From assembly GCA_002698995.1 (NCBI GenBank), contig PAAX01000002.1, forward strand, positions 1 to 64,000: a DNA stretch of 64,000 nt, in the 5' to 3' direction. A model generated the notes under the pieces. It was given only the letters and a program-made list of their open reading frames with translations. It had not been told where the DNA came from and did not search any database. The position numbers were made by a program, and so were the translations under genes. Source of the stretch: Ignavibacteriota bacterium. Lineage in GTDB: Bacteria; Bacteroidota; Ignavibacteria; Ignavibacteriales; Melioribacteraceae. This document shows positions 1,388 to 15,659 of this stretch, piece by piece; within the stretch, counting starts at the first letter, position 1, and the number at the start of each line of letters is the position of its first letter.

Positions 1388-3250
1388 TTATTTTGGTATT
1401 CTTATTGTAAAGTTTGATCCAATATTTTTTTTACTCACAACAGAAATTTCTGCATTATTTACATCACAATATTTTTTAACTAGAGCCAATCCCAAGCCAT
1501 TACCTTCATACTTTCTTGTATAGCCGGTATCCTCTTGGGTAAAAGGAGTAAATATATCCTCTAAAAATTCTTCTGCTATTCCAATACCGGAATCAATAAC
1601 ACTTATGTACTGATTGTGTTCGTCACAGCAGATAACAATTTTAATTATTCCATTATGCGTATATTTATTAGCGTTATCAATCAGGTGAGAAAAAATTTGA
1701 ATCATTGAATATCTATCGCAATAAACTAGACAATCAGAAAGTTCTCCTTCAATTTCAATTTTGTTGTTTTTGCTGTGAAAGTATTCTCCATACTCAATCA
1801 TAATATCATTGATAACATCATCATAAATATTAATCTTTTCATAGATTGGATTATATATTCCTAACTGAAGTTCAGACATATTTAAAATCAAATCGATAGT
1901 TCTGATAATTCGTTTTGTTGATGTTTCTATTCCCCAGAAAAAACTATTAATTCTAGAATCCTTAGAAAAGAATTCTTCTTTTAACAGACTGATATAATTA
2001 AGGATAATATTGATTGGTGTACTTATTTCGTGGCTCATTTGAGCTAAAAATTCTGTTTTTAATCTATCTGATTTCTCAGCAAATTCTTTAGCAGAATTTA
2101 GTTCACTAAACAATTTCATATAACTTGTTATATCCCAGCAGATACCTAATATCTTACGTTCTTCAACCATATTTTCATATTTAATCAAAGCAAACTTTAC
2201 ATATTCAATAGAGCAAGGGTTCTTAATCTTCAAGTCCAATTCTTTGTATGAAAAATTGTTGTTCGAAAATAATTCAATAAAATTTTTTAAGTAATTTTCG
2301 TCAATCAAATTACACCAATCTTCAAGAGAAACATTCAAATTATTTTTTACACAGAATAAATCGTACATCTGTTCATTCCATGTAATAATTTTGGATTCGA
2401 TCTGATATTCCCAAATACCTATTCTGGCTGTCTTTGCCAATAAGTTCATCTTTTCAGAAAGATTTTTCAATTCTCGTTCTATTTGTTTATTTGCAGTTAT
2501 ATTGTTGGCAGTATAAATAACCGCAAAAATATTACCGTACTTATTAAAGACAGGTTTGTAATTAACTTGGAGGGTTATTCTATTTTCATTTGGATAAATT
2601 AAATCAATCTCTCTGGATATTATTTCTCCCTTAAGGGCTCTGTTAATATTTTCAACCAAAGGTTCTTTAGCAATAATTTTTTGATAGTTTAGAACAGATT
2701 CACCAATAGTTAAGGCAGTATTGTAGGCTTTTTTTACTATTTCTCTAAAGGTATCATTAAACCCCACTATTTTATATTTTTTGTCTATTAACAGGTTATA
2801 GTCATTTGAATTATTGAATGACGGACTTAATAGAACACCGGTTTCATCAATTTTTTCATCTATAGTTAATTTTATCTTTTCATATTTTTTAAAGCAGTTA
2901 TTTACAGCTTCCAGCAATTCTTTATTATTGATTGGTTTTAACAAAAAATCATTTGCGCCGTACAGCATAGCTTCGCGCAGATATTTATATTCAAAAACCC
3001 CTGAAAGAAAAATAAAAGGGATTTGTGAAGAATAAATTTCCTTTTCAAGTTCTCTTTTAAATTCAATTCCATTTTGATTTTCTAATTGTATATCGGAAAT
3101 AATCAAATCAATTTGATTATAACTATTGATGATATTTAAGGCTTCATTTGGATTTTTAGTGGAAATAACTTTATAGCCGGCATACTCAATAACTTGGGAA
3201 ACTGCTGTTAAATCTTCGGGAGTATCAACTACAACAAGTATGTTTTTCAT
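1388..3250 (-). CDS. REC-PAS-PAS sensor histidine kinase, cytoplasmic
   Basis: A 620-residue kinase with no membrane segment. Order: response-regulator receiver (1-120; phospho-acceptor Asp53 in SDIQL, Lys105 in LLKP), PAS-like region (about 150-260, ending in a PAC-like strand YTANNITANKQIERE), second PAS (about 265-385), HisKA with QMSHEISTP (His407), and HATPase (N box DNANKY, G1 DSGIGIAEE, G2 EGNGLGLALVKKY). The receiver has only one acidic residue at the usual metal pair (VVVDTPED instead of DD), so phosphorylation may be weakened. A good GGAGGA ribosome site precedes the ATG. No partner regulator is adjacent. It likely senses a cytoplasmic signal through PAS; the ligand is unknown. Confidence 0.85.
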   Translation of the reverse strand: MKNILVVVDTPEDLTAVSQVIEYAGYKVISTKNPNEALNIINSYNQIDLIISDIQLENQNGIEFKRELEKEIYSSQIPFIFLSGVFEYKYLREAMLYGANDFLLKPINNKELLEAVNNCFKKYEKIKLTIDEKIDETGVLLSPSFNNSNDYNLLIDKKYKIVGFNDTFREIVKKAYNTALTIGESVLNYQKIIAKEPLVENINRALKGEIISREIDLIYPNENRITLQVNYKPVFNKYGNIFAVIYTANNITANKQIERELKNLSEKMNLLAKTARIGIWEYQIESKIITWNEQMYDLFCVKNNLNVSLEDWCNLIDENYLKNFIELFSNNNFSYKELDLKIKNPCSIEYVKFALIKYENMVEERKILGICWDITSYMKLFSELNSAKEFAEKSDRLKTEFLAQMSHEISTPINIILNYISLLKEEFFSKDSRINSFFWGIETSTKRIIRTIDLILNMSELQLGIYNPIYEKINIYDDVINDIMIEYGEYFHSKNNKIEIEGELSDCLVYCDRYSMIQIFSHLIDNANKYTHNGIIKIVICCDEHNQYISVIDSGIGIAEEFLEDIFTPFTQEDTGYTRKYEGNGLGLALVKKYCDVNNAEISVVSKKNIGSNFTIRIPK

Positions 3251-12773: not shown

Positions 12774-12846
12774 GAGATTTATCAGTGATTTAAATCAATT
12801 GATGTATTGAATTTGTGCTCTATTTAACAATTGCCTTAACCAAATT

Positions 12847-12875
12847 TTGCATTTTGCTTTTTTAATAGATATAAT
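12847..12875 (+). promoter_or_regulatory. candidate sigma-70-type promoter of the small membrane protein
   Basis: A perfect TATAAT is preceded after 17 bases by TTGCAT (only TTG matches the -35 consensus). The expected transcript start is about 12882, about 30 bases before the GTG start of the 37-codon gene. Confidence 0.45.
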
Positions 12876-12912
12876 GTCTATTAGAAATTACGAAATAAGT
12901 TAGGATAAAATT

Positions 12913-13026
12913 GTGGCACTAAGTTCAATTGTATATGCAAGTTTATCGATATTTTTTGGATTTTTTGGATTGCTTTTATTAGTAGCATTCTTCGCTTCCC
13001 GAGGCAGTAAAAGAGAAAACAGATAA
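12913..13026 (+). CDS. 37-residue single-helix membrane protein
   Basis: A small gene: GTG start with AGGA seven bases upstream, then a protein beginning MALSSIVYASLSIFFGFF, a hydrophobic helix to about residue 28, and a short basic tail ASRGSKRENR. The pattern (N-out or N-in helix followed by positive residues) suits a one-pass inner membrane peptide with a cytoplasmic C-terminus. A -10 box upstream and a GC-rich terminator 15 bases after the stop make it a complete small transcription unit. Size and layout recall accessory subunits such as CcoQ or KdpF, but there is no sequence match I can defend. Alternatively the transcript could act as an RNA. Confidence 0.55.
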   Translation: MALSSIVYASLSIFFGFFGLLLLVAFFASRGSKRENR

Positions 13027-13040
13027 ATATTTTGGCTGGT

Positions 13041-13080
13041 GGGCGCTGTATTATTTAAGTTTTTATGGCGCCCTTTTATT
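13041..13080 (+). terminator. intrinsic terminator after the small membrane protein gene
   Basis: The stem GGGCGC/GCGCCC with a 21-base loop is followed by TTTTATTATTTTT. Its position also argues against starting the following thioredoxin-like gene upstream of 13120. Confidence 0.7.
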
Positions 13081-13119
13081 ATTTTTCCATTCTATATTTC
13101 TTCACAATTAAAATTTAAC

Positions 13120-13416
13120 ATGCACAATTTGGACAAGACTTCCTCAGTTTATTATTTCAGCACGGAAACATGTAACGTTTGTAAAGTTCTAAAACCTAAG
13201 TTAAAATCATTTCTTGATGAGAATTTTCCAAAACTTAAAATGACTTACATTGATGTTGAGCAGGAAAAAGAATTAGCTGCTCAATTAACAATTTTTGCCG
13301 TACCAACAATAATAATTTATTTTGACGGGAAAGAATTCTTACGTTATTCCCGAAATATAAACTTTGATGAGCTTCATCAAAGCTTGGAAAGAATGTATAA
13401 TCTCTATTTTGACTAA
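13120..13416 (+). CDS. thioredoxin-like protein
   Basis: A 98-residue thioredoxin fold. The redox site is STETCNVCKVLKP (CxxC with NV between, unlike the CGPC of thioredoxin), and the cis-proline loop is FAVPTIIIYFDGKE. The reading frame is open further upstream, but that part crosses a terminator and is not protein-like, so the ATG at MHNLDKTS is used; there is no strong ribosome site. It probably reduces or passes electrons to a protein partner in the cytoplasm, as no signal peptide is present. It ends five bases before a histidine kinase gene and may be co-transcribed with it. Confidence 0.75.
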   Translation: MHNLDKTSSVYYFSTETCNVCKVLKPKLKSFLDENFPKLKMTYIDVEQEKELAAQLTIFAVPTIIIYFDGKEFLRYSRNINFDELHQSLERMYNLYFD

Positions 13417-13421
13417 GAAAT

Positions 13422-14963
13422 ATGAATAATCCAATTAAAAGAATCGGTTTAATACTGGGATTCCTATTCCTCTTTCCCGCATTATTCTTTACTGCAATTG
13501 AGATTAATTCAATTAATGAAAGTGAACGAGTACTTGAAAATATTTATTCGAATCAGCTTGAAACAATTCTTCTTTCCGTAAACCGATTTTCCGATGATGT
13601 ACTTAACAGCTGGGCTAATGATTTAGAATCAAAAAATGCATTTAATAATTCCAATTCTTTTAGTTATCAACTAGAAGATTTTTTTAAGAATAAACGATCG
13701 TTACAAAATATCTTTCTAACTGATACTTCTTATTCGCGGTTTACATTTTTTAATAATAACAATGCTTCAAGTAAAGATGAAATTGTAAATCTTCTAAAGT
13801 CCAGTCAAAATAAAATTGAGAAGCTTTATAATTATATTACAAGCGGCTACAGAAAATTAGAACCGCTCAGCAATGATTCACTTGGAATAAACTGTGTTGT
13901 TTATATTGTTGAACAGAACGGCAGAAAATTTCTGCTGGGATTTTTAATTAACCCGGATGAATTTATAAATTCAGTTTTAGCTCCAAAGATACAAGAAGTT
14001 GCAAGAGATGATATTGTTATCAGAACTACAAGAACAAAGGACAACAATCTAATTTACACAACCGACAAATTTTTTAATGATAAACCGATCGAAACCCAAA
14101 AGGAGTTCTGGTTATTTCCTAATTATCAAATCGGTATTACTTTAAAGGGAGAATCTTTAGAGAACATTGTAAAGTCGAGATCATACTTTAATTTAAGTCT
14201 GTTAGGGGGATTGAATCTTCTTTTACTTATAGCAGTAATTTTTCTTTTTAGAAGTATTAAAAAGGAAATTCATCTTGCTCAATTAAAATCGGAATTTGTA
14301 TCAAACGTTTCTCATGAATTAAGAACACCTCTTGCATTAATCTCAATGTTTGCAGAAACTCTTGAATTAGGAAGAGTTAAAACTGAAGAGAAGAAAAATG
14401 AGTATTACAAAATAATAAGCAACGAAGCTCAAAGATTAAGCAAAATTGTAAACTCAATTTTAAATTTCTCTAAGATGGAATCCGGTAAAAGAAAGTATCA
14501 TCTTGAACCGGCTAATTTAAATGAGGTTATAGAGAATGTAATCTCTACCTATAAATTTCATCTTAACAGCAAAGGATTTAATATAGAATTGAATCTGACC
14601 GACAAACTGAGAAGCAGTAAAATAGACAAAGAAGCAATTTCCGAATGTTTGATAAATCTGATTGATAATGGAATTAAATACAGCAAAGATGAGAAGAAAC
14701 TTTTAATATCTTCCAATCAAGATGACGAATTTGTTTACTTAAGTGTAACCGATTTTGGAATTGGTATAAGTAAAGAAGATCAGAAAAAAGTGTTTGATAA
14801 GTTTTACAGGGTCCCAAGCAATTTAGTCCATAATACAAAAGGAACTGGACTGGGATTGAGTATAGTATTTCAAATAATAAATGCACACGGTGGAAAAATA
14901 GAAGTGAAAAGTGAAATTGATAAAGGATCAACATTCACATTATTCTTTCCAATTGAAAAGTAA
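13422..14963 (+). CDS. membrane sensor histidine kinase (PhoR/WalK-like)
   Basis: A 513-residue kinase: membrane helix at about 9-27, extracytoplasmic sensor of about 230 residues with no recognised domain, second helix at about 256-276, HisKA with SNVSHELRTPLALI (His298), HATPase with LIDNGIKYS (N box), TDFGIGIS (G1) and GTGLGLSIV (G2). It is followed after 12 bases by a PhoB-type regulator gene and the two form a classical two-component pair. The sensed signal cannot be deduced; the thioredoxin-like gene immediately upstream hints at redox but only by position. Confidence 0.92.
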   Translation: MNNPIKRIGLILGFLFLFPALFFTAIEINSINESERVLENIYSNQLETILLSVNRFSDDVLNSWANDLESKNAFNNSNSFSYQLEDFFKNKRSLQNIFLTDTSYSRFTFFNNNNASSKDEIVNLLKSSQNKIEKLYNYITSGYRKLEPLSNDSLGINCVVYIVEQNGRKFLLGFLINPDEFINSVLAPKIQEVARDDIVIRTTRTKDNNLIYTTDKFFNDKPIETQKEFWLFPNYQIGITLKGESLENIVKSRSYFNLSLLGGLNLLLLIAVIFLFRSIKKEIHLAQLKSEFVSNVSHELRTPLALISMFAETLELGRVKTEEKKNEYYKIISNEAQRLSKIVNSILNFSKMESGKRKYHLEPANLNEVIENVISTYKFHLNSKGFNIELNLTDKLRSSKIDKEAISECLINLIDNGIKYSKDEKKLLISSNQDDEFVYLSVTDFGIGISKEDQKKVFDKFYRVPSNLVHNTKGTGLGLSIVFQIINAHGGKIEVKSEIDKGSTFTLFFPIEK

Positions 14964-14975
14964 TAAGAGGAAGTT

Positions 14976-15659
14976 ATGCAAAGAATTTTAGTTGTTGAAG
15001 ATGAACCGAGCATGAGAATTGGTCTGAAAGACAATCTGGAGTTTGAAGGTTACGAAGTTGAGTTTGCCGATGATGGCGAATCCGGATACAAAAATATTAT
15101 GACTCAAAAATTTGATTTAATTCTGTTAGATGTTATGCTTCCCAAAATGAATGGATTTGATGTATGCAGAAAAGTAAGAGCGGAGGGAGTTAAAATTCCA
15201 ATAATTCTGTTGACTGCAAAAGGAGAAGAAATTGATAAAGTATTGGGATTAGAATTAGGGGCGGATGATTATGTTACCAAACCTTTTGGTCTTCGGGAAT
15301 TATTAGCAAGAATTAAGGCTGTAATGAGAAGATCAACAGAATCTCAGCCTGATCAAATTGAAGAAGCTGAGATTGGAAGTTTGATTGTAAATTTTTCTAA
15401 TTATTCTGCATTTAACAACGGCAATGAAATTGCAATGAGTCATAAAGAATTTGAACTCCTTCATTTTCTTTGGAAGAATAAAAATAAAGCAGTAAGCAGA
15501 GATGATTTACTTAAGGAAATTTGGAATCAAGAAGTTTTTACTACAACAAGAACTATCGATAACTTTATTGTTAAACTTAGACAAAAAATTGAGGAAGATC
15601 CGAACAAACCAAAAATAATATTAACTGTTCATGGAGTTGGTTATAAACTAATATTATAA
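14976..15659 (+). CDS. OmpR/PhoB family response regulator
   Basis: A 227-residue regulator: receiver domain (1-120; VVEDEP acidic pair, phospho-acceptor Asp52 in LLDVMLP, Lys in VTKPF) and a winged-helix DNA-binding domain (about 130-227; the SHKEFELLHFLWKN and RTIDNFIVKLRQKIEEDP segments are diagnostic). An AGAGGAAG ribosome site precedes the ATG. Partner of the kinase directly upstream. Target genes unknown. Confidence 0.94.
   Translation: MQRILVVEDEPSMRIGLKDNLEFEGYEVEFADDGESGYKNIMTQKFDLILLDVMLPKMNGFDVCRKVRAEGVKIPIILLTAKGEEIDKVLGLELGADDYVTKPFGLRELLARIKAVMRRSTESQPDQIEEAEIGSLIVNFSNYSAFNNGNEIAMSHKEFELLHFLWKNKNKAVSRDDLLKEIWNQEVFTTTRTIDNFIVKLRQKIEEDPNKPKIILTVHGVGYKLIL

Follow-up and report, generated by a model that had tools for sequence, protein, structure and literature searches.

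A candidate 37-residue membrane microprotein gene and its Ignavibacteriales family of short and long forms

Three kinds of molecule relevant here, namely small membrane proteins, RNAs with a dual function and peptides accessory to kinases, are already known, as described in the excerpts of the papers cited below. In E. coli, the 47-aa membrane protein MgrB regulates the sensor kinase PhoQ (excerpts of PMC8404706 and PMC10576120). The family described below resembles it in comprising small single-pass membrane proteins and in lying one gene from a sensor kinase in two genera; however, most of its short members occur, in the contexts read, with no kinase close by, its helix is common to long paralogues, and the likeness is one of architecture, drawn without sequence comparison. 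The dual-function RNAs SgrS/SgrT and VcdRP (passages of PMC4021124 and PMC8672173) are similar in that a short ORF and an RNA element share one small transcription unit, whereas the element of our family can stand on either side of the ORF (5′ or 3′), the hairpin is present without the ORF in one genome, and the RNA is a candidate only. Type I toxins (PMC8309996, in part) also are short hydrophobic peptides and, as in relatives of our locus, have a hairpin in the same unit, but the helix of our family is conserved across an order and recurs in long paralogues. Finally, YohP-type small membrane proteins (parts of PMC7549839 and PMC12719787) likewise consist of one transmembrane helix and little else; unlike these, our family was restricted to a single order in the scans performed, and here, too, the two were likened by form and not by sequence comparison.

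Here, we analyzed a 64,000-nt stretch of DNA from an Ignavibacteriota bacterium (the window). Our main reading, to which we assign a probability of about 0.6, is that positions 12846–13085 constitute a genuine gene, complete in itself, for a translated single-pass inner-membrane microprotein of 37 residues, which would be expressed in this genome and act by helix contacts with long paralogues or a partner.

The transcription unit and its peptide

The initial annotation, made from the letters of the window, had described at 12847–13080 a perfect TATAAT, an AGGA ribosome site, a GTG-started hydrophobic 37-mer with a basic tail, and a terminator. Each of these parts can be read in the sequence, and the observation as a whole is confirmed:

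12846–12875, + strand: sigma-70-like promoter, TTTGCA-18-TATAAT (10/12 consensus matches; not significant alone)
12902–12905, + strand: AGGA ribosome-binding site, 7 nt before the GTG (read from the sequence)
12913–13026, + strand: 37-codon ORF with GTG start (12913) and TAA stop (13024–13026), encoding a predicted single-pass membrane microprotein with a helix at residues 3–34 and a basic tail (profile matches, composition, AlphaFold2)
13034–13039, + strand: GGCTGG hexamer, 7 nt after the stop codon, unpaired in the predicted fold (sequence, RNA fold)
13041–13085, + strand: terminator, with a 10-bp stem (13041–13050 with 13064–13073) followed by a U-rich tail (RNA fold)

The promoter—TTTGCA at 12846–12851, an 18-nt spacer, and TATAAT at 12870–12875—is by itself weak evidence, because TATAAT is common in the window (140 copies against 118.6 expected) and the region is rich in promoter-like sites (19 against 11.9 expected, sd 3.4). 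The terminator hairpin has a predicted energy of −15.9 kcal/mol (z −1.93), with 8 of 200 shuffles folding equally well; its loop of 13 lies beyond the 3–8 allowed by a simple terminator scan, which therefore did not list it. Structure of the whole transcript was considered as the main signal and rejected, the fold being ordinary (z −0.18). Promoter and whole-transcript fold are uninformative alone; conservation carries the weight.

As to the peptide, 419 ORFs of 25–60 codons were scored in the window, of which 17 encode a 19-residue stretch with a mean Kyte-Doolittle value of at least 2.2 and a single one—the 37-mer—combines a strong hydrophobic segment with a tail of net charge +3. AlphaFold2 predicts one helix spanning residues 3–34, with a mean pLDDT of 88.2 and lower values at the last residues (63). 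The charge pattern suggests that the N-terminus faces outward and the basic C-terminus the cytoplasm. Such a protein may be a regulator or subunit of a membrane complex, as the initial annotation had proposed.

The window peptide had no match in Pfam up to an E value of 1 and none in NCBIfam, and seven and five relatives, respectively, yielded nothing above cut-off in these libraries. There was no significant match among PHROGs (best E 0.046) or solved structures (best E 0.77), and the open-licence literature searched held nothing on point for small membrane proteins of Ignavibacteria, noncoding RNA of Ignavibacteriales, GGCUGG hairpins or sigma-54 in Melioribacter. The family, its split into short and long forms and its RNA companion are thus absent from these four collections and from that literature.

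An order-wide family with short and long forms

Searching 58 relatives with the peptide returned weak matches, many of them aligned from residue 1, and reading these revealed a motif common to them and tied to the start codon: M-x-L-x-x-[IV]-[IV]-Y-x-S-L-x-I-F with a basic stretch after it, which the window peptide also has. With a profile of 13 sequences (A1), 111 of 164 genomes of the order matched at E ≤ 0.001; relaxing the cut to E ≤ 0.1, where ~16 would be expected by chance, raised the number to 133. When a second profile of 31 sequences (A2) was run across the phylum, 34 of 395 genomes matched at E ≤ 0.001, 32 of them inside the order, which contributed 40 genomes to the draw, as inferred from a listing with the nearest non-matching genomes first. 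The two matches from outside, among about 355 genomes, are both internal fragments that start at model position 9 or 11 within frames of 1312 and 255 codons; at most 19 candidates were scored per genome, and it is at this sensitivity that the family is absent from other orders. As an order check, 26 genomes were picked by title from 80 named thioredoxin loci. Of 20 chosen as Ignavibacteriales- or Melioribacter-like (19 titled Ignavibacteriales, Ignavibacterium, Ignavibacteriae, Melioribacter or Melioribacteraceae, and one 'Bacteroidetes bacterium'), 16 match the family; the six controls (Marinilabilia, Geofilum, Anaerophaga, Maribellus) gave one partial match, with a stop inside.

By these profile scans, the window 37-mer belongs to an unnamed family specific to one order, the Ignavibacteriales. 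The initial annotation had held that a frame lacking conservation among relatives would speak against it; the frame is instead conserved as an order-wide protein family, and the annotation's interpretation of the unit is supported. What began as a single unannotated 37-mer becomes an order-wide family that can be tested and is missing from the libraries searched.

Selection on the ORF points in the same direction. Eight comparisons of short orthologues gave pN/pS values of 0, 0.05, 0.07, 0.07, 0.11, 0.17, 0.27, and 0.50, of which three come from the same trio and the last rests on 5.5 synonymous differences; all compare relatives outside the window's genus, such that no value is one for the window ORF itself. 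To judge from these substitutions, the short forms in relatives are under purifying selection. The unit had also been described as self-contained, and two of four sibling alignments bear this out, with conservation confined to the promoter region, ORF and hairpin (G140/G137 and the trio of genus g24). The other two do not: between G138 and G133 the conserved stretch continues downstream, and between G031 and G145 the flanks are poorly conserved except for GGCTGG. That the 37-mer is a chance ORF that is never translated is highly improbable: AT-rich DNA does hold many ORFs and TATAAT is common, but the profile, shuffle, selection and composition tests all argue against it.

For counting, members were drawn from loci among the matches listed and assigned by stop position, with the size classes cut at 90 aa. 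Repeats of an ORF, profile matches whose start lay past model position 6, and members of the other size class had been dropped beforehand; this left 50 short and 68 long members. The short members read comprise 34–49 aa, with little beyond the helix and the basic tail. Long members have 109–266 aa and join the same N-terminal helix to a polar tail that is probably disordered; they often start M-[ST]-L-[LV]-P-I-I-Y-T-S-L, and R-I-E-I-M-N-like and L-x-x-Y-Y-like stretches recur in the tail. Many long members form tandem pairs. Among 45 non-overlapping long-form loci, an HU gene is found in 38 and a gene for a zinc-ribbon protein in 28.

The window genome itself carries one clear short member, a tandem long pair on contig C16 and a weaker long member on contig C6 (E 9.5e-4). 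The tandem pair (G000:C16:158280-158774) resembles loci L111–L140 and L273–L292, with which it has the N-terminal helix and tail motifs in common. Short members, too, occur as adjacent pairs, as seen at L147, L148, L151, L300, L301, L303, and L306 and also at L154, from another family of the order.

To guard against misleading similarity between hydrophobic helices, a profile was built from long N-termini only. Scored with this HMM of 62 sequences, the window peptide came out at the top of the window's 1653 ORFs (E = 1.4e-5, against 0.029 for the runner-up), and the best E value obtained with 60 column-shuffled HMMs, on a joint set of 7383 ORFs, was 0.0052. Some short members score weakly with it (G133, 0.0053; G031, the worst, 0.022). 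Most likely, judging from these profile scores, the window 37-mer is the N-terminal membrane module of the long family members in a free-standing copy.

Short and long genes differ in their predicted promoters. We searched upstream regions for TGG[CT]A[CT]-N5-TTG[CT], which we take to be the −24/−12 consensus of sigma-54 and which has a background of 0.009 per 200 nt. This motif was found upstream of 31 of the 68 long members, always at −38 to −69. All 31 belong to the 45 first or single long genes, 14 of which lack such a site, and none to the 23 second genes of tandem pairs. Upstream of the 50 short members the motif was not found, and a looser sigma-54 pattern matched two of them, at −148. 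The tandem long pair of the window genome has no sigma-54-type site. In relatives, then, the putative promoters of long genes contrast with those of short ones. As separate observations, the long paralogue on C6 (L163; G000:C6:21197) has a sigma-54-type site, TGGCACATCAATTGT, at −38, and the window contains a further sigma-54-type match, TGGTATTCTTATTGT, at 1394 on the + strand.

That short and long proteins share one helix while their promoters differ in type raises a hypothesis for how membrane microproteins originate and work, namely as membrane modules split off from larger proteins. We propose that the short protein would make helix-helix contacts in the membrane through the helix it shares with the long paralogues, either pairing with them or competing for a partner that this helix recognizes, and that a microprotein gene with a sigma-70-type promoter could in this way tune a membrane complex. 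One might extend this, tentatively and at odds we consider rather low, to a two-layer system across the order, in which microproteins under sigma-70, made up almost entirely of the shared helix, would tune the membrane proteins that bear a tail, many of which would be under sigma-54, and in which one taxonomic family's microprotein gene is paired with a GGCUGG RNA element acting on the same circuit.

Neighborhood of the short genes

Downstream of the terminator, the window contains three genes in the same orientation:

13120–13416, + strand: thioredoxin-like gene (ATG 13120), between the peptide and the kinase
13422–14963, + strand: sensor histidine kinase
14976–15659, + strand: OmpR-type response regulator

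A longer GTG frame of the thioredoxin-like gene (13039–13416) runs through the terminator, and ATG 13120 is the likelier start. The thioredoxin neighbor was rejected as an anchor: in 80 named thioredoxin loci, no match to the family was better than E 0.056, and this neighbor is thus not conserved.

The initial annotation had suggested looking for the peptide in the same place in related genomes. This location is kept only in part: in the window genome, and likewise in three genomes of a second genus (g24) whose short member again has a GTG start, a single gene separates the short gene from the same kinase-regulator pair downstream of it. This arrangement bears on the reading that the 37-mer is a kinase accessory protein that binds the sensor kinase (13422–14963) in the manner of MgrB, which, as an analogy, strikes us as improbable. 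The gene between peptide and kinase differs in each genus, and an orthologue of the kinase is present in 72 of the 164 genomes, from 37 genera, whereas the arrangement was seen in two genera among the matches listed; adjacency to the kinase was accordingly rejected as a general rule. The other contexts read place the short gene beside other neighbors, in one case (G104) with the regulator about 3 kb away.

Overall, the neighbors of short genes differ between genera and are similar within them. The latter is a point against a type I toxin, that is, a hydrophobic peptide repressed by an antisense RNA—an analogy suggested by the size of the 37-mer, its hydrophobic helix and basic tail, its own promoter and terminator, and the RNA element found in relatives. 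The conservation of the helix sequence across the order and the existence of long paralogues with the same helix likewise argue against a toxin, and the opposite strand offers promoter-like matches only, as expected by chance in AT-rich DNA. We therefore regard a toxin as decidedly improbable and retain the reading of a microprotein that acts through its helix.

The linked GGCTGG element

On the sense strand, and no more than 75 nt from the ORF, GGCTGG occurs at 13 of 17 short loci of the window's taxonomic family (window included), at none of the 33 other short ORFs, and at 3 of the 68 long ones (Fisher p 1.7e-11; the 17 include several siblings and are not independent). When the test was set up, GGCTGG was already known to be present at nine of the 17 and absent at one (G024); the later additions were L203, L205, L209, and L217, which came from a protein search, and L293, L294, and L296, one of which has the motif. 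With the cut set at 120 nt, the count in the taxonomic family becomes 14 of 17: L217 (G153), counted as lacking the motif at 75 nt, has two GGCTGG hairpins that begin at +71 and +111. The copies near three long genes (L130, L274, and L287) were rejected as RNA elements, since they are the −24 end of sigma-54-type sites.

In seven of the 13 loci, GGCTGG sits in a hairpin loop, either 5′ of the ORF (G140, G137, G127, G010, and G120) or 3′ of it (G138 and G133); in the remaining six (the window, G031, G145, and the three g24 genomes), it precedes the terminator stem. The window copy is within 75 nt of the ORF and lies outside a hairpin loop, and the element there consequently amounts to hexamer plus position. 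The window contains 15 copies of GGCTGG against 7.5 expected, one of which adjoins the peptide, and the complement CCAGCC does not occur in the window transcript.

Nine hairpins from related loci covary, with 97.5% of 81 cells paired and changes on both sides in seven of nine pairs; the alignment was fitted to the model, and the result therefore leans towards it. A first RNA model (R1) was discarded, as 25 of its 30 fetched matches lacked GGCTGG and, where read, looked like ordinary terminators; six of the 25, near contig ends, were judged by a hairpin scan alone, which showed no GGCTGG hairpin. A second model (R2), made from the nine hairpins and run on 79 genomes, returned nine strong matches (at least 34.9 bits; next 28.3) that are its own training set and hence not an independent discovery; eight lie at short-peptide loci and one (G003) stands alone. 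R2 missed the hairpin of G120, which has 13 pairs in its stem and C-GGCUG-G at the top and came to light later via the peptide; other copies may therefore exist. In the window genome, R2 had no match at E ≤ 0.3. A hairpin scan of the loci from L031 on located 11 further hairpin-like places with GGCTGG that are not near peptide genes—nine of them within thioredoxin loci, the others at L119 and L151—which are candidates only and possibly coding; they have 6–9 pairs, compared to 10–14 at peptide loci and 7 at G003.

The initial annotation had also considered that the transcript could be a small RNA, and the GGCTGG element of related loci lends this partial support. Taken to its full extent, the transcript would be mainly a small regulatory RNA, dual-function or linked to the ORF, whose GGCUGG pairs with or binds something and to which the peptide is secondary. 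The covarying hairpins, the restriction of the hexamer to short loci of one taxonomic family, the hairpin of G003 with no peptide beside it, and the placement of the element on either side of the ORF would all fit. Yet the ORF is under purifying selection in siblings, GGCTGG is missing within 120 nt from every one of the 33 short ORFs of other taxonomic families and from 3 of the 17 of this one, the window hexamer is outside a hairpin in a genome without an R2 match, and the covariation comes from an alignment fitted to its model. On balance, we consider a primarily RNA-based function unlikely. Under the preferred reading of a membrane microprotein, the element in or beside the transcript may add control at the RNA level, and as a linked feature it offers a handle on how the microprotein is regulated.

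Rfam identified nothing in the window and only tRNA in six loci. In G003 (L226, ~1501–1536, minus strand), the GGCUGG hairpin without a short peptide is nested in a terminator-like outer stem that follows a TATAAT, and is possibly a stand-alone small RNA. At L202 and L203, a few hundred bases separate the unit of short peptide and hairpin from a tRNA gene.
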